Below are positions 1 through 46,263 of a DNA stretch of 64,000 nt, one piece after another. Source of the stretch: a virus. The position numbers and the translations under genes are program-made. Each line of letters begins with the position of its first letter. Within the stretch, counting starts at the first letter, position 1. The notes under the pieces were generated by a model. That model did not search any database, had not been told where the DNA came from, and saw nothing but the letters and a program-made list of their open reading frames with translations. Location: positions 1-64,000 of the IMG/VR virus record IMGVR_UViG_3300046536_000173; one strand, given 5' to 3'.

Positions 1-213
1 GAGGGCGAGCTTCCGCAAGCGCTCCAGCTTGAACCCGCCCGCGAGTATTGCGTGATCATGTGCGCCGACCTCGACGAATGGGAACGCCTCAAAGTCGCGC
101 TGTCGCTCACACCCGTCCGCCGAGGCGGATACAAGCGGGGATCTGTGCTCGACGACGTGAGCACGCAACGCGTCGTGACCGCCGCCGCCGTCCTGAAGCT
201 GATCGAGGGGTAA
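1..213 (+). CDS. ParB/Srx-like protein, C-terminal fragment (unit A)
   Basis: Open from the first base; only the last 70 residues are present, ending at TAA 211-213. They match the C-terminus of the complete unit B protein at 41945-42586, including the stretch EYCVIMCADLDEWERLK and the ending VLKLIEG. The ParB-fold N-terminal domain is outside the window. In both units the gene sits four bases upstream of the Acb2-like gene and leads into the terminase block. The role is not known; phage ParB-like proteins of this kind often lie near terminase or DNA methylase genes. Confidence 0.85.
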   Translation, partial: EGELPQALQLEPAREYCVIMCADLDEWERLKVALSLTPVRRGGYKRGSVLDDVSTQRVVTAAAVLKLIEG

Positions 214-216
214 GAC

Positions 217-462
217 ATGTCCGACCAGCCGCAACCACAGATGATTGACAGCACCGCCGACCCGCGCACCGTCAACAACGTGGTGCGCCACGAATACCGC
301 GTGCTGACCGATGCCGAAAAAGACCACATGCGCGCGATCAAAGACCTGGGGCTTGCCTTCATTGAGCAATGCGACGCGATCGGATCGAGCCGCGAACTGG
401 CACTGGCGAAAACGAACGCCGAGATGGCGGTGATGTGGGCCGTGAAACACGTCACGAGATAA
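217..462 (+). CDS. Acb2/Tad1-like small protein (possible anti-CBASS/anti-Thoeris nucleotide sponge)
   Basis: 81 residues. The second half carries a pattern I associate with the Acb2/Tad1 hairpin family: a Y-R-x-L-(T/S) start, an acidic/KDLGLAFIEQ helix, an IGSSRELALAKT turn and a final EMAVMWAVKH helix. Acb2 proteins bind cyclic di- and trinucleotide signals and so block CBASS immunity. The N-terminal 25 residues are polar and variable. Unit B carries a close homologue at 42590-42859 in the same place. The start ATG follows the ParB-like stop by 3 bases. The family call rests on remembered motif pattern, not on a search, so function is inferred. Confidence 0.5.
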   Translation: MSDQPQPQMIDSTADPRTVNNVVRHEYRVLTDAEKDHMRAIKDLGLAFIEQCDAIGSSRELALAKTNAEMAVMWAVKHVTR

Positions 463-465
463 GCC

Positions 466-651
466 ATGCAAGAGCGCGCGATCGTTTACTTCGTCGTCGC
501 ATGGCTCGCGTGCTGGTTGATCGATCTCGTGATCATCGTCGCGCGCGGCCCCGTGCTGATCGACCCGATCCTGAAGCTCGTGGTCGTGCTCGTGTGCCTG
601 ATCATCGTCCTGGTCGGCCTCGCGCGGCACGGATGGTTGCTGACCGGATGA
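466..651 (+). CDS. Small two-helix membrane protein
   Basis: 61 residues with two hydrophobic segments, roughly residues 6-26 and 34-54, separated by a short ARGPVLID loop. It begins 3 bases after the Acb2-like gene and overlaps the glycosyltransferase start by an ATGA junction, so it is probably translationally coupled. Unit B has an unrelated soluble 60-residue ORF in the same slot (42856-43038), so this position is a variable cassette site. No function can be assigned; a membrane anchor or holin-like role is possible but unsupported. Confidence 0.6.
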   Translation: MQERAIVYFVVAWLACWLIDLVIIVARGPVLIDPILKLVVVLVCLIIVLVGLARHGWLLTG

Positions 652-1398: not shown

Positions 1399-1560
1399 AT
1401 GAGCGACGACCGCGAGCGCTTGCTTCTGAAACTGGTCGAGGCGGTGCAAGACCTCGCGGGAGCGATCCTCGACCATGTGTCGCCCGCCGACCGCACGACG
1501 ATCGCCGACGTGCAGGCGAGACTTGCCGAGATGCGTCGCGAGTATCGGGGCGGCGCCTGA
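1399..1560 (+). CDS. Small hypothetical protein, likely helical
   Basis: 53 residues, starting one base after the glycosyltransferase stop and overlapping the terminase small-subunit start by one base (TGATG). The sequence is charged and heptad-like (ERLLLKLVEAVQDLAGAIL), suggesting one or two amphipathic helices. The equivalent slot in unit B (43789-44019) holds an unrelated 76-residue ORF. I do not recognise a family. Confidence 0.55.
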   Translation: MSDDRERLLLKLVEAVQDLAGAILDHVSPADRTTIADVQARLAEMRREYRGGA

Positions 1561-2072
1561 TGGGCCGACGCCCGAAGCCGACCGCCTTGCACAAGCTCCA
1601 CGGAACCCACAACGCGACGAAGCACGGTCGCGACCGCGAGGGCGAGCCGATCCCGCTGGGCGACCTGGAGGAGCCGCCGCACGACCTGACCGAGAGTCAG
1701 GAAGCCGCGTGGCGCTACGCCGTCCAGAACATGCCGAAGGGCGTCGTCAAGCTGGTCGATCGTGGCATCCTGAAGGTCTGGGTCGAAGCGGAGGATCGCC
1801 ACAACACCGCGCGCATGATGCAAGCCATGCTCGACCAGGACACGAAGCTAAAGCTCCTGGTCAAAGGCCCGAACGGGCTGGAGCCTTCGCCCTACAACTT
1901 CATCCTCGACAAGTGCGCGCAAACCATGTTCCGCGCCGCGCAGGAACTTGGCTTCTCGCCCGCCGCGCGCCCCCGCCTGAAGCTCTACGCGCAGCAACCC
2001 GACAAGCCCGCCGCCGACGTGCGCGCCGACCCGTGGGCCATGCTGCAGGTCATCCCCGGTGGCAAGGCGTAA
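1560..2072 (+). CDS. Terminase small subunit, P27-like family
   Basis: 170 residues. Begins MGRRPKPTALHKLHG, the characteristic N-terminus of P27-like small terminases, followed by an acidic E-P-P segment and a helical DNA-recognition region. The protein would recognise the phage packaging site and recruit the large subunit to the concatemer. The stop lies 14 bases inside the large-subunit gene, so the two are translationally coupled. Unit B has a closely related protein at 44019-44534, with differences concentrated near residues 30-55. Confidence 0.88.
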   Translation: MGRRPKPTALHKLHGTHNATKHGRDREGEPIPLGDLEEPPHDLTESQEAAWRYAVQNMPKGVVKLVDRGILKVWVEAEDRHNTARMMQAMLDQDTKLKLLVKGPNGLEPSPYNFILDKCAQTMFRAAQELGFSPAARPRLKLYAQQPDKPAADVRADPWAMLQVIPGGKA

Positions 2073-41857: not shown

Positions 41858-41944
41858 TGACGCGATCGACCCCCATACGGTGTCCGAAACCGGGATCGAT
41901 CGTGTGCACTGACCGCGCCCCAACTGATTTTTTAGCTTTCCAAT

Positions 41945-42586
41945 ATGGGCCAGACTGAAGCCGCCGCTTGGCCCGCCGACCAGATCGAGCGCCGCGACGT
42001 GTCCGCGCTCGTGCCGCACGTCCGCAACGCCCGGAAGCACGGCCCCGCGCAGATCGCGGAGATCGCCGGCCTGATCCGCGAATGGGGCTGGACCGTGCCG
42101 ATCCTGATCGACGAAGCGAACGGGATCATCGCGGGGCACGGGCGCGTGCTCGCCGCGCAGCAATTGAACATCGCCGACGTTCCCGTTGTCGTCGCGCGCG
42201 GATGGAGCGACGCGCAAAAGCGCGCATACATGATCGCCGACAACGAAGTGACCGCGCACTCGACCTGGAATACGGAGCTATTGCGCGTCGAGCTGGCCGA
42301 CCTCGCGCAACAGGGCATCGACCTGGAGACGATCGGCTTCAGCGCCGCCGACCTCGCCGCCAAGGGATCGAGCGAGGGCGAGCTTCCGCAAGCGCTCCAG
42401 CTTGAACCCGCCCGCGAGTATTGCGTGATCATGTGCGCCGACCTCGACGAATGGGAACGCCTCAAAGTCGCGTTGTCGCTGACTCCCGTCCGACGCGGCG
42501 GATACAAGCGCGGGTCCGTGCTTGACGACGTGAGCACGCAACGCGTCGTGACCGCCGCCGCCGTCCTGAAGCTGATCGAGGGGTAA
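41945..42586 (+). CDS. ParB/Srx-fold protein
   Basis: 213 residues. VSALVPHVRNARKHGPAQIA, an EWGWTVPILIDEANGIIAGH-GRVLAA stretch (GHGR is the ParB-type nucleotide-binding motif) and RAYMIADNEVTAHSTWN define the ParB N-terminal fold. LETIGFSAADLA is shared with ParB domains of phage DNA-methylase fusions, but no methylase domain follows. The last 60 residues carry EYCVIMCADLDEWERLK. May be a CTP/ATP-dependent DNA-binding or nuclease factor. Start chosen at ATG 41945; an AT-richer 87-base leader precedes it. Confidence 0.88.
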   Translation: MGQTEAAAWPADQIERRDVSALVPHVRNARKHGPAQIAEIAGLIREWGWTVPILIDEANGIIAGHGRVLAAQQLNIADVPVVVARGWSDAQKRAYMIADNEVTAHSTWNTELLRVELADLAQQGIDLETIGFSAADLAAKGSSEGELPQALQLEPAREYCVIMCADLDEWERLKVALSLTPVRRGGYKRGSVLDDVSTQRVVTAAAVLKLIEG

Positions 42587-42589
42587 GAC

Positions 42590-42859
42590 ATGTCCGACAC
42601 GCCGCAACCAACGATCGACACGACCGACCCGCGCGCCACCATCGACAGCGCTTCCGACGCGCGCACCGTCAACAACGTGGTGCGCCATCAATACCGCGTG
42701 CTGTCCGACGCCGAAAAAGACCAGATGGGCGCCCTCAAAGACCTGGGGCTTGCCTTCATCGAGCAATGCGACGCGATCGGATCGAGCCGCGAACTGGCTC
42801 TGGCGAAAACGAACGCGGAGATGGCGGTGATGTGGGCCGTGAAACACGTCACGCGATGA
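42590..42859 (+). CDS. Acb2/Tad1-like small protein, unit B
   Basis: 89 residues. Same motif series as the 217-462 protein (VVRHQYRVLSDAEKDQM, ALKDLGLAFIEQCDAIGSSR, MAVMWAVKH), with a longer variable N-terminus (two TID/DxR repeats). Retention of the core in both phages with divergent flanks argues for selection. If it is an Acb2 homologue it would sequester cyclic-nucleotide immune signals. Confidence 0.5.
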   Translation: MSDTPQPTIDTTDPRATIDSASDARTVNNVVRHQYRVLSDAEKDQMGALKDLGLAFIEQCDAIGSSRELALAKTNAEMAVMWAVKHVTR

Positions 42860-43038
42860 CAGCCTGGGAAGATCGTATGCGCGCCGCGCTCCTCGCCTGT
42901 GAGGCGCAGTTTCACGCATACGCCGATCATCATCTGGCGAAGGAACCGCCCGATCGCGACAAAGCCGCGATCAACGTCCGATGGGCGATCGACTGCCACG
43001 AAGCCGCGATGCCGCCCGACCGGGTCGTGCTCCGTTGA
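42856..43038 (+). CDS. Small soluble hypothetical protein
   Basis: 60 residues, ATGA-coupled on the Acb2-like side and TTGA-coupled to the glycosyltransferase. Helical: AWEDRMRAALLACEAQFHAY and DKAAINVRWAIDCHEAAM. Occupies the slot that in unit A holds an unrelated two-helix membrane protein (466-651). Unknown function. Confidence 0.55.
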   Translation: MTAWEDRMRAALLACEAQFHAYADHHLAKEPPDRDKAAINVRWAIDCHEAAMPPDRVVLR

Positions 43039-43784
43039 CGAAGCCGAAGCGCCGCGCCTCCTCGATCCATGTCGCGGTCCCCTCGAAAGGCAGGGCTGGC
43101 AGGGTGCGCACGCAAGCCGTGATCCCGTCGTGCACGATCTATGCGCCCGCGCTCGAAGCCGCCGCCTACCGCGCCGCAGGGGGCCGCAACGTCGTGCCCG
43201 TGCCCGACACCGTGCGCGGGATCACCGCGACGCGAAACTTCATCCTCGACAACGCGCCCTCGACGCGCGTCGTGATGATCGACGACGACGTGAAAACGCA
43301 GGGCTGGACGCATCTCCTCCCGCGCTCCGCGCACAAGCTCCATCTCGACGAAGCGACGTGGCTCGCCGAATTCCGCAAGCTGTTCGAGGTGACGGAGAGT
43401 CTTGAATTCCGCATCTGGGGCGTGGCGACCGAAAGCGCGACGCGCTCCTGTTACCCGTGGGCGCCCTTCCGCTGGCGCGCGTATGTCACCGCGTCGTGCA
43501 TGGGGATCGTCAACGACGATCGCGCGCCCCGCTTCGACGAAACATATCCCGTGAAAGAGGATTACGAACTCTGTGCCCGGTGCATCCGCGATGATGGCGG
43601 GGTCGTTGCGGCGCAGTATCTATTCTGGGAGAACGCGCACTGGCACGACAAGGGCGGATGCAACGACTATCGCACGCAATCGATGGAGCGCGACGCGATC
43701 CGCCGCCTTTGCAAAACCTATCCGGGCCTCGTGCGCGCCGTCGAGCGCGCGTCGAACGCCTGGGCGATCGAGATCGGACCCTGA
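43035..43784 (+). CDS. GT-A-type glycosyltransferase-like protein, unit B
   Basis: 249 residues from TTG 43035 (overlaps the previous stop; matches the ATG start of the unit A copy). Same motifs: IHVAVPSKGR, GITATRNFILD, VMIDDDVKTQ. Most differences from unit A fall near residues 33-52 (TIYAPALEAAAYRAAGG); the nucleotide-sugar half is almost invariant. Substrate unknown, as for unit A. Confidence 0.5.
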   Translation: MTKPKRRASSIHVAVPSKGRAGRVRTQAVIPSCTIYAPALEAAAYRAAGGRNVVPVPDTVRGITATRNFILDNAPSTRVVMIDDDVKTQGWTHLLPRSAHKLHLDEATWLAEFRKLFEVTESLEFRIWGVATESATRSCYPWAPFRWRAYVTASCMGIVNDDRAPRFDETYPVKEDYELCARCIRDDGGVVAAQYLFWENAHWHDKGGCNDYRTQSMERDAIRRLCKTYPGLVRAVERASNAWAIEIGP

Positions 43785-43788
43785 TCAC

Positions 43789-44019
43789 ATGAGCGACATC
43801 ACCACATCACCGTTGGTCGCGGATGGTGGCCTTTGCTTGTTCCAGGCGATCGAGCCGACGCACTGGCTCACGTTCGCGTCGTGCGGCCTACGGATCAACA
43901 TGGCCACGGGTGAGGTCGTGATCCCGGATGGTCTCGCGCTCAACGAAGCCTCCCGGCAATTCTGGGAACAATTGGGGCGCTTTCATCCGCTCGCCCCGAT
44001 CGGGTTTGGTGATCGCTGA
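43789..44019 (+). CDS. Small hypothetical protein upstream of terminase
   Basis: 76 residues, in the slot of the unrelated 1399-1560 ORF of unit A. Contains LVADGGLCLFQAIEPTHWLT and MATGEVVIPDGLALNEASRQ; predicted mixed alpha/beta. The stop shares one base with the small-terminase ATG (TGATG). No family recognised. Confidence 0.55.
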   Translation: MSDITTSPLVADGGLCLFQAIEPTHWLTFASCGLRINMATGEVVIPDGLALNEASRQFWEQLGRFHPLAPIGFGDR

Positions 44020-44534
44020 TGGGACGCCGCCCGAAGCCGACCGCCTTGCACAAGCTCCACGGCACATACAACGCGACGAACCACGGACGCGACCGCGCGC
44101 AAGAGCCGGTGCCGATGGGCGACCTGGAGGAGCCGCCGCCCGACCTGACCGAAAGCCAGGAAGCCGGATGGCGCTACGCGATCGCCAACATGCCGAAGGG
44201 CGTCGTCAAGCTGATCGATCGCGGCATCCTGAAGGTCTGGATCGAAGCGGAGGATCGCCACAACACCGCGCGCCTCATGCAAGCGATGCTCGACCAGGAC
44301 ACGAAACTAAAGCTCCTGGTGAAAGGCCCGAACGGGCTGGAGCCGTCGCCTTACAACGTGATCCTCGACAAGTGCGCGCAAACCATGTTCCGCGCCGCGC
44401 AGGAATTGGGCTTCTCGCCCGCCGCGCGTCCGCGCCTGAAGCTCTACGCGCCGCCGCCCGACTCACAAGCCGCCGCCGACGTGCGCGCCGACCCGTGGGC
44501 CATGCTGCAGGTAATCCCTGGTGGCAAGGCGTAA
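44019..44534 (+). CDS. Terminase small subunit, P27-like (unit B)
   Basis: 171 residues, beginning MGRRPKPTALHKLHGTYNAT. Homologous over its full length to 1560-2072; the main changes are at residues 19-35 and in the C-terminal YAPPPDSQAAADVRADPW. Overlaps the large-subunit GTG by 14 bases, the same coupling as unit A. Recognises the packaging site of unit B. Confidence 0.88.
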   Translation: MGRRPKPTALHKLHGTYNATNHGRDRAQEPVPMGDLEEPPPDLTESQEAGWRYAIANMPKGVVKLIDRGILKVWIEAEDRHNTARLMQAMLDQDTKLKLLVKGPNGLEPSPYNVILDKCAQTMFRAAQELGFSPAARPRLKLYAPPPDSQAAADVRADPWAMLQVIPGGKA

Positions 44535-46263
44535 GCCTCCCGCGCCTCCTCCTCCCGGTGATGATCCGCGCCGCTTCACGCGCGACGCGCTCGACTATGC
44601 GAAGCGCACCGCCGACGATCCCGCCGCCGCCTCGATCCACGCCCGCGCCGCGTGCGAGCGCTTCATCCGCGACCATGCCGAAGCATCGAAGCGCGACACC
44701 CGCTGGTCGTTCGACGACACCGCCGCGATCCGCGCGATGGTGTTCGCGACTCAAATGCCCAACATCAAAGGCCCGGAAGCGAACAAGCCGATCCGCCTGA
44801 TGGACTGGCAAAAGTTCGCATATAGTAACATTTTCGGGTTCCTGGAGCGTGGCACGACGACCCGCCGCTTCCGACAGGCGGGCATCTTCGTTCCGAAGGG
44901 TAACGGCAAAACAACGATCTCCGCGCCGCTCGCGATGTATATGACATTCGGCGAGGGCGAGGGTGGAGCGGAGGGCTACGCCGCCGCCGTCACAAGAGAT
45001 CAGGCCCGCATCCTGTTTGACACCGCGTCGAACATGGTCCGCCGCTCGCCCGACATGCAACGCGCCTGGGGCGTCGGCGTGCTGACGAATTCGATCTTCC
45101 AGGAACGCACCGCCTCGCGCTTCATCCCGATCTCCTCCGACGCGAAGGCGCTCGACGGCCTCAACGTCGCCGTCGCCGTGTGCGATGAAATCGGATCGCA
45201 CCGCACGAGCGAAGTCTATGACGCGCTGATAACCGCGATGGGCAAGCGTCATCAGCCGTTCCTCCTGTCGATCTCGACCGCGACCAGCAACAGCGCCGGG
45301 ATCGGAAAACAGGTCTGGGATTACGTGCTCCGCGTCGTGCAAGGCGGGCAGGATGACGATCGGCTGTTCGGCATCATCTATTCGATCGACGACCAGGATG
45401 ATCCGTGGGACGAAGCGACCTGGGTCAAGGCAAATCCGGGCTGGGGCCATAGCGTGCAACCGGACGCGATCCGCGCGATCATGCGACAGGCCCGCAACAA
45501 CCCCGCGCAAGAGATGTCCGCCCGGACGCGGCACCTCAACGTGTGGGTCGGCGCCGACGAAGCGCTTTTCTCAACGCGCGCATGGAACGCGTGCGGCGAC
45601 GCCTCGCTTCAAATCGCCGCCTTCGAGGGCCGCGAATGTTACATCGGCGTCGATCTCGCCTCGCGCGCCGACCTCGCCGCCGTCGTCGCGGTGTTCCCGC
45701 AAACCGTCACCGTCGAGGGCCGCGACGCGCTGATGTTCACGGTGTTCGCGCGCTGTTACCTCAACGAAGCCGCCGTGATGGAAGCGCGCAACCCGTCATA
45801 TCCGGGGTGGGCCGCGAACAACGAATTGATCATCACGCAAGGCAACGAAACCGACTTCCACACGATCGAGGCCGACATCCTCGACATGAATTCGCGCTTC
45901 CGCCTGATGTCGCTCGCCTTCGATCCCTTCAACAGCGTGCACATGGCGCAACGCCTGACCGCGCGCGGTGTGCCGTGCCGCGAATTCCGATCGAACGCGC
46001 AAAACTTCAGCCCCGCGACGCGTGAACTCGAAGCCGCGATCCGGGGCAGTCGCATTCAACACGACATGAACGGCCCGCTGGGCTGGTGCATCGGAAACGT
46101 CGTCGGCCACACCGACGCCCGCGACAACGTGTATCCGCGCAAAGCACGCCCGGAGAACAAGATCGACGCCGCGATCGCGCTGATCATGGCGATCGCGCAA
46201 GCGACCGATCTCGCCGCAGCGCCCTCCGTTTACGAGACAAGGGGGTTGATCACACTCGGATGA
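44521..46263 (+). CDS. Terminase large subunit (unit B)
   Basis: 580 residues from GTG 44521. Walker A PKGNGKTT and Walker B VAVCDEIGSH as in unit A; nuclease segment YIGVDLASRADLA and AFDPFNSVHMAQ. One notable substitution is FDPFN for FDPYN. The stop overlaps the portal ATG directly (ATGA), because the proline-rich ORF of unit A is missing. Confidence 0.95.
   Translation: MARRKPPAPPPPGDDPRRFTRDALDYAKRTADDPAAASIHARAACERFIRDHAEASKRDTRWSFDDTAAIRAMVFATQMPNIKGPEANKPIRLMDWQKFAYSNIFGFLERGTTTRRFRQAGIFVPKGNGKTTISAPLAMYMTFGEGEGGAEGYAAAVTRDQARILFDTASNMVRRSPDMQRAWGVGVLTNSIFQERTASRFIPISSDAKALDGLNVAVAVCDEIGSHRTSEVYDALITAMGKRHQPFLLSISTATSNSAGIGKQVWDYVLRVVQGGQDDDRLFGIIYSIDDQDDPWDEATWVKANPGWGHSVQPDAIRAIMRQARNNPAQEMSARTRHLNVWVGADEALFSTRAWNACGDASLQIAAFEGRECYIGVDLASRADLAAVVAVFPQTVTVEGRDALMFTVFARCYLNEAAVMEARNPSYPGWAANNELIITQGNETDFHTIEADILDMNSRFRLMSLAFDPFNSVHMAQRLTARGVPCREFRSNAQNFSPATRELEAAIRGSRIQHDMNGPLGWCIGNVVGHTDARDNVYPRKARPENKIDAAIALIMAIAQATDLAAAPSVYETRGLITLG

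Follow-up and report, generated by a model that had tools for sequence, protein, structure and literature searches.

A ParB-like gene and a TAGT-family glycosyltransferase gene travel as a linked pair in phages and may form a DNA-glycosylation unit

The 64,000-nucleotide stretch analysed here (the window) comprises bases 1-64000 of the 83,470-bp virus record IMGVR_UViG_3300046536_000173 (IMG/VR) and holds two related phage genomes, unit A and then unit B, in which a ParB-like gene and a gene for a glycosyltransferase (GT) of the TAGT family stand shortly before the terminase genes. The ParB and GT genes were found to travel as a strongly linked unit, in constant order and mostly touching or overlapping, in phages and genome contigs of several bacterial phyla, and we consider, with moderate confidence, that they constitute a putative two-gene, late-expressed phage DNA-glycosylation unit. 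A description of the pair was not found in the literature searched, and an earlier mention of a ParB-TAGT neighbourhood is possible; the paper of Iyer et al. 2013 is reportedly the founding one for the TAGT family. In unit B, the two genes are:

41945..42586, + strand: ParB-like gene, 213 residues, with a ParB/Srx-fold N domain (about residues 13-145) and a conserved C-terminal domain
43035..43784, + strand: GT-A glycosyltransferase gene of the TAGT family, 249 residues, TTG start (PF20691, phrog_842, predicted GT-A fold)

The relatives of the GT were collected by scanning viral contigs with a GT alignment, and the 80-locus sets referred to below are the best 80 of 328 for the GT, of 227 for a ParB C-terminal motif, of at least 404 for the Acb2-like protein encoded between the two genes, and of at least 565 for a family of small proteins termed F, with several loci in these sets being near-copies of one another. 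In 77 of the 80 GT loci, tblastn placed a ParB-like gene upstream in the same orientation as the GT, and a profile confirmed this count, the other three being two loci cut within 90 nucleotides of the GT (L050 and L092) and one real miss (L101). In the reciprocal direction, the GT lay downstream in 80/80 loci retrieved via the ParB C-terminal motif, which had been taken from GT-linked ParBs. Both counts bear out the co-occurrence of ParB-like and GT genes that an initial annotation of this DNA had suspected. Among ten GT loci on genome contigs (24-47% identity), ParB was upstream in eight, belonging to Roseibacillus, Victivallaceae (two), Acidobacteria, Phascolarctobacterium, Bacteroides, Lentisphaerae and one metagenome-assembled genome; one more was cut at the GT, and in L024 none was seen. 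Where the pair recurs in other phyla, its GT has about 25% identity. The pair is also carried by Microbacterium phage Fireman, the one neighbourhood viewed out of 56 Microbacterium records, and by Streptococcus phage Javan291. A search of 395 Bacteroidota genomes with the Pfam model gave nine matches, with ParB directly upstream in all three strong ones, which include the already known centre genome and L358, a TAGT beyond the reach of the GT profile, and in none of the six weak ones, of which one was counted as exceeding the cut-off. At 90% GT identity, 74 non-redundant pairs were retained, 59 of them with at most 60 nucleotides between the matched stretches, and the ParB and GT distances correlate across these pairs (r 0.69, with 0 of 2000 permutations as high), the input being the 160 of 169 loci with both proteins long enough, after nine were dropped.

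The GT of unit B matches PF20691 with 31.7 bits (cut-off 27.5) and phrog_842 with E 2.1e-20, while its unit A counterpart scores 27.7 bits with the former. Its structural model, with a predicted local distance difference test (pLDDT) of 89, has a GT-A fold, the best match reaching Z 14.8 with a root-mean-square deviation (rmsd) of 4.7 over 204 residues, and a DDD motif is invariant in 36 aligned GT sequences. The window ParB matches phrog_620 (E 2.4e-42), and its model (pLDDT 84.5, predicted template modelling score 0.55) resembles the N domains of the cytidine triphosphate (CTP)-binding ParB/Noc proteins with Z of about 15 over about 130 residues, the best match being M. xanthus ParB (Z 15.2, 135 aligned residues, rmsd 3.2), whereas sulfiredoxin and free serine kinase are matched less well. 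The model aligns to ParB only over residues 13-150; the C-terminal domain is conserved as QxxPxxEY...VRRGGYKxGS...RV, and an alignment of 41 GT-linked ParBs has nine invariant columns, seven of them in the C-terminal part, which is a candidate contact for the GT. In PADLOC, the ParB domain matches only the N part of a type II methyltransferase model.

The genomic position of the pair is marked by the contig ends of relatives, which place the following site upstream of ParB:

41914..41922, + strand: cos, 9-nucleotide CGCGCCCCA, putative 3' cohesive overhang, from contig ends of relatives

The left genome end begins at 41923, and the cos site lies 22 nucleotides before ParB. Twelve contigs (L030-L034, L036-L038, L040, L041, L048 and L049, some of them near-copies) start 20-34 nucleotides before ParB with ACTGATT, ACCGATT, ATGGAT or GAGGA, and L044 starts 26 nucleotides before it with a different sequence; overall, of the 53 loci whose upstream flank is short, 29 start 20-80 nucleotides before ParB. 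Ten other contigs (L075, L076, L079, L080, L082, L083, L086-L088 and L095) form a second group, with another fixed start 55-68 nucleotides before ParB. These shared starts make ParB the first left-end gene there, and the ParB and GT genes precede the terminase. At its left end, L034 has seven additional bases, which we take to be a sequencing-adapter tail, and the right end of the same contig (G001, 43,436 bp) is CACTGAC. The uncut window reads CACTGAC-CGCGCCCCA-ACTGATT at cos, and the absence of these nine bases from both ends would be accounted for by a 3' cohesive overhang that end repair removed, as judged from one right end. The gene of the terminase large subunit (TerL), mostly of two families, was located within 2 kb after the GT on the same strand in at least 58 of 92 loci, which is a lower bound because the terminase scan, made with six query proteins, missed at least one annotated TerL, that of Javan291. 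In L107 (672-3419), the GT and TerL share one open frame of 915 residues, with TAGT at residues 1-196 and GpA_nuclease at 650-891.

The same pre-terminase position is held in other phages by ParB domains associated with different modifiers. The gene immediately before the terminase genes of pOW20-A and of ctGfd272 encodes a fusion of a ParB domain and a methyltransferase; such fusions (phrog_498, of which Javan213 provides a further example) have a homologous ParB N domain (58% identity between ctGfd272 and the window ParB over residues 8-138) and the methyltransferase within the same chain, whereas in the window the GT is encoded separately and the C-terminal domain of ParB is another one. 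A natural swap is provided by Javan291: its ParB domain shares 66-75% identity with those of Javan213, Javan316 and Javan492, the three Streptococcus ParB-methyltransferase phages viewed, but it has a separate TAGT-family GT where the ParB domain of the latter is part of a methyltransferase gene. In L078 (415-3641), another ParB-domain protein, which bears an N4/N6 methylase motif, is encoded after the ParB-GT pair, and the gene after the GT of Fireman is that of a UDP-glucose dehydrogenase. In phage CaiB, with the gene set as excerpted from PMC9302106, ParB is gene 1, followed by the TET/JBP set and then by the terminase, and the listing for Rhodococcus phage Tonitrus in PMC11955845 gives genes 1-5 as ParB-like, tet-like, aGPT-Pplase2, hydroxymethyluracil kinase and hypothetical. 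The TET/JBP clusters have a ParB-like gene within the first five genes, with coupled genes and a terminase after them in CaiB, but carry TET/JBP, pyrophosphorylase and kinase genes, while no TET/JBP match was found for the window pair. Direct homology between the ParBs of CaiB and the window is not supported by BLASTP, which gave no match between them; the ParB model finds that of CaiB with 39 bits, in the N domain only.

The ParBc genes also accompany the CmoX carboxymethyltransferases of phages, with the role of ParB given as unknown in the relevant part of PMC12783734; these carboxymethylcytosine systems have, as here, a base modifier with ParBc nearby, but consist of a carboxymethyltransferase and a ligase instead of a GT. 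Vibrio phage X29 has a lone ParB-like gene that opens the genome before the genes of the terminase small subunit (TerS) and TerL, with no modifier adjoining. According to PMC7326821, genes 102-106 of phage DLP3 are a glycosyltransferase of another family, a hypothetical gene, ParBc, a hypothetical gene and TerL, and the annotations of mycobacteriophage PRodriguez, in the form given in an extract of PMC10893344, include ParB-like, dpdA-like, galactosyltransferase, deacetylase, adenylate kinase and terminase genes, listed here irrespective of their order. Two loci with the pair have further content of their own, namely L084 (5219-7117), where the gene after the GT combines a PLP-dependent-enzyme domain with an N6_N4 methylase motif, and L090 (4121-4993), where a PAPS-reductase-family protein is encoded in a 1.3-kb insert between ParB and GT.

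Since the same position holds ParB-methyltransferases and TET/JBP sets, and in view of the Javan swap, the methylase-bearing L078, the L107 fusion and the Fireman dehydrogenase, DNA is the probable substrate of the GT, late and before packaging. In the mechanism that we propose, late expression of the pair would accompany that of the packaging genes; the ParB-fold protein would hold the DNA, possibly with a nucleotide, and its C-terminal domain would recruit the GT, which would move sugar from a nucleotide-sugar to the replicated phage DNA before packaging, and the sugared DNA might be shielded from restriction or CRISPR. In this way, many TAGT-family GTs would be assigned a conserved and specific partner as well as a place in the genome, and the ParB link, noted before for methyltransferases and CmoX (PMC12783734, in part), would be extended to glycosyltransferases, with the isolated Microbacterium phages that carry the pair being a direct testing ground.

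Several results weigh against DNA glycosylation by the pair. The models for TET/JBP, thymidylate-synthase and C5-methylase proteins matched in none of the 19 pair-bearing records, many of which are fragments; the GT occurs without a detectable ParB in L101 and L024, and the reciprocal count was obtained with a motif of GT-linked origin. The window ParB scores only 21.2 bits (E 3.1e-4) with Pfam ParB_N, under the cut-off of 26.3, and the closest solved folds to the GT model are polysaccharide and protein glycosyltransferases. In addition, the authors of the DLP3 study, in the section concerned, regarded its GT as a lipopolysaccharide modifier and its ParB as a plasmid-maintenance factor (PMC7326821).

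The beta-glucosyl-HMC-alpha-GT of T6 (HMC, hydroxymethylcytosine), a TAGT of PF20691, shares with the window GT the Pfam family, the predicted GT-A fold and the phage origin; it acts on DNA and requires hydroxymethylcytosine that is already glucosylated, as stated in a passage of PMC13216743. The T-even TAGTs thus have glucosylated hydroxymethylcytosine as substrate and stand beside an alpha-GT, whereas the window GT has a ParB partner and no detected hydroxymethylase of the thymidylate-synthase type. An N4/N6 methylase was present in 4 of the 19 pair-bearing records, three over the cut-off. CaiB, as the positive control for the TET model, did ring, but under the curated Pfam score, and weak acceptor-making enzymes could be missed because many records are fragments and the TET of CaiB scores below cut-off. 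With no acceptor-making enzyme matched, the acceptor would come from an unrecognised enzyme, from the ParB-fold protein or from the host, or else the GT would sugar an ordinary base. A self-sufficient glycosylation by ParB and GT without a hydroxylated base, in which an ordinary base is sugared or the acceptor is produced by the ParB-fold protein, appears unlikely, though worth spelling out: a ParB clamp, possibly CTP-dependent, loaded near cos might deliver the GT to DNA awaiting packaging, and the target might be an exocyclic amine, by analogy with that methylated by the ParB-methyltransferases. If true, it would account for some of the phage TAGTs described as "solitary" and would represent a new chemistry, sugar on unhydroxylated DNA, against restriction and CRISPR. 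Solitary TAGT homologues were reported in 288 of 753 phage genomes by a study of 2026, the portion of which considered here suggests novel transferases (PMC13216743).

Among the other explanations, the glycosylation of a virion protein or of the host surface, similar to seroconversion, with ParB as a separate DNA-binding or plasmid-maintenance factor, is improbable to our judgement, somewhat more so than the sugaring of an unhydroxylated base. The pair does adjoin the packaging genes, the fold neighbours of the predicted GT model act on protein and polysaccharide, and there are precedents in the proposals for DLP3 (PMC7326821, in the section named above) and for the GTs of Corndog between the portal and protease genes, which were suggested for capsid glycans in a part of PMC4351075; however, it leaves unexplained the strict ParB partner and the methyltransferase or TET/JBP at the same position. 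Decidedly less probable is a pair akin to restriction-modification, in which a ParB-fold nuclease attacks the unmodified DNA of rivals or the host and the GT protects that of the phage: phage ParB-like proteins are often annotated as nucleases and the two genes are tightly coupled, but no nuclease motif was identified, though none was searched for, and ParB partners several different modifiers, which fits an accessory role. We give the same low standing to an action of ParB and GT only at or near cos, marking or protecting the genome ends during packaging, since against the 22 nucleotides that separate ParB from cos in this group, the starts 20-80 nucleotides before ParB in the short-flank loci and the single GT-TerL fusion there stand the location of the pair near the right end of the Fireman genome and the 25 of 92 loci with no neighbouring terminase seen, plus 5 with the terminase elsewhere, in a scan that undercounts terminases.

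The other genes of the two units, from which a larger system had been surmised, are as follows:

42590..42859, + strand: Acb2-like gene of unit B, 89 residues, passenger (PF24729, E 3.5e-17, 62.8 bits, cut-off 27)
42856..43038, + strand: slot 1 open reading frame (ORF) of unit B, 60 residues, with no Pfam, PHROG or NCBIfam match
43789..44019, + strand: slot 2 ORF of unit B, 76 residues, with a homologue 86% identical in slot 2 of L032
44019..44534, + strand: TerS gene of unit B (phrog_83, E 9e-18)
44521..46263, + strand: TerL gene of unit B (PF20441/PF03354 type)
1..213, + strand: ParB-like gene of unit A, last 70 codons and stop
217..462, + strand: Acb2-like gene of unit A (PF24729, E 9.5e-18)
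466..651, + strand: slot 1 of unit A, hydrophobic 61-residue protein unrelated to slot 1 of unit B, with a homologue 87% identical in L008
648..1397, + strand: TAGT-family GT gene of unit A (PF20691, 27.7 bits)
1399..1560, + strand: slot 2 of unit A, 53 residues, unrelated to slot 2 of unit B
1560..2072, + strand: TerS gene of unit A, product 89% identical to TerS of unit B

The initial annotation had read these genes as one fixed island with ParB-like, Acb2-like and GT genes at its core and two exchangeable slots. All the ORFs that it named were found where it had placed them, and the order ParB-like, Acb2, slot 1, GT, slot 2, TerS and TerL is real in unit B and the same in unit A from within ParB, only the end of which is seen because the record begins inside the gene. 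The sharing of overlaps between the units proved to be partial: those of slot 1 with the GT (ATGA at 648 in A, TTGA at 43035 in B, the TTG start of the unit B GT being placed by homology to unit A) and of slot 2 with TerS (one base) occur in both, while Acb2 and slot 1 overlap only in B (ATGA at 42856), the next start in A being 3 nucleotides past the stop. The units are 79% identical in Acb2, 95% (236/249) in the GT and 89% in TerS. The slot products (61 and 60 residues for slot 1, 53 and 76 for slot 2, in A and B, respectively) give no A-B alignment by BLASTP, as expected for unrelated ORFs, but their supposed similarity of size fails for slot 2, where the lengths differ by 43%.

The window gene at 42590-42859 is a member of the Acb2 anti-CBASS sponge family by Pfam (Acb2_Tad1_hairpin domain, 62.8 bits against a cut-off of 27) and stands outside the ParB-GT pair. 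It was found in only 2 of the 80 GT loci, L029, which is phage B itself, and L030, and neither by tblastn nor by profile in the remaining 78; conversely, in 80 independently scanned Acb2 loci, inspected as far as 3 kb or to where the contig ends, the GT was present in none and a ParB-like gene in four. Acb2 is therefore a local passenger beside the ParB-GT pair, and a three-gene ParB-Acb2-GT island is contradicted by the gene content of relatives. The three-way link surmised in the initial annotation is thus reduced to ParB and GT, and the random gene content that it had named as its counter-case is realised in part, with Acb2 outside the link and the slots variable. A single anti-defence island of ParB, Acb2, GT and slot ORFs, for which the order common to units A, B and L030 speaks, is very improbable given the absence of Acb2 from 78 of the best 80 GT loci, the absence of the GT from the Acb2 loci elsewhere and the empty slots in about half of the close relatives.

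The slots are variable insertion points at two gene junctions, with Acb2 and the slot ORFs being separate accessory cargo. TerS was assigned in 28 loci, counting A and B, with gene starts set automatically. Slot 2 was empty (at most 13 nucleotides) in 16 of these loci and occupied in the other 12, and slot 1 was filled in 11, empty in 13 and unassigned in 4; the contents do vary as had been proposed, but Acb2 and both slots come and go, and the island is not fixed. The slot ORFs of this group, of about 45-92 residues, are shuffled, and one family can occupy either slot. The slot-1 homologue of unit A stands directly after ParB in L008, which has no Acb2, and the slot-1 ORF of unit B has relatives among the 80 GT loci only in L029 and L030. 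Family F (L048:675-878 and relatives, EPIxQFF...RKLLEAKDAAVRA) fills slot 1 in L047-L049 and slot 2 in L008, L036, L037 and L039; it matches 309 of 50,697 phage records, and the GT is present in only 3 of the 80 viral F loci. Its identity as a hidden Acb2 relative is unsupported: a shallow F profile found PDB 9ptq, "Acb2 homolog 43", with E 0.064 alongside designed helical proteins, and a deeper profile lost it, the profile-profile probability being 0.1-0.2; F and Acb2 both touch phrog_1454 weakly. The search of the slot ORFs against Pfam, PHROG, NCBIfam and PADLOC gave no useful known function, with slot 1 of unit B weakly matching MTase_II of PADLOC (E 0.0038) and L049:667-900 touching Pan_kinase below the cut-off. 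No result obtained here, none coming from a test aimed at it, pointed to the anti-defence role that the initial annotation had thought possible for the slot proteins.

Units A and B may have been joined in assembly through a stretch common to both, instead of being tandem phages or prophages, because nucleotides 1-99 of the record are identical to 42374-42472 of unit B. L029, obtained from another metagenome, represents the same phage as unit B, which it matches over 7,412 nucleotides with 100% identity, and is cut at 42370. Farther along the record, unit B encodes what was judged by eye to be a second ParB-like protein (L005:14481-15689, record 78381-79589).

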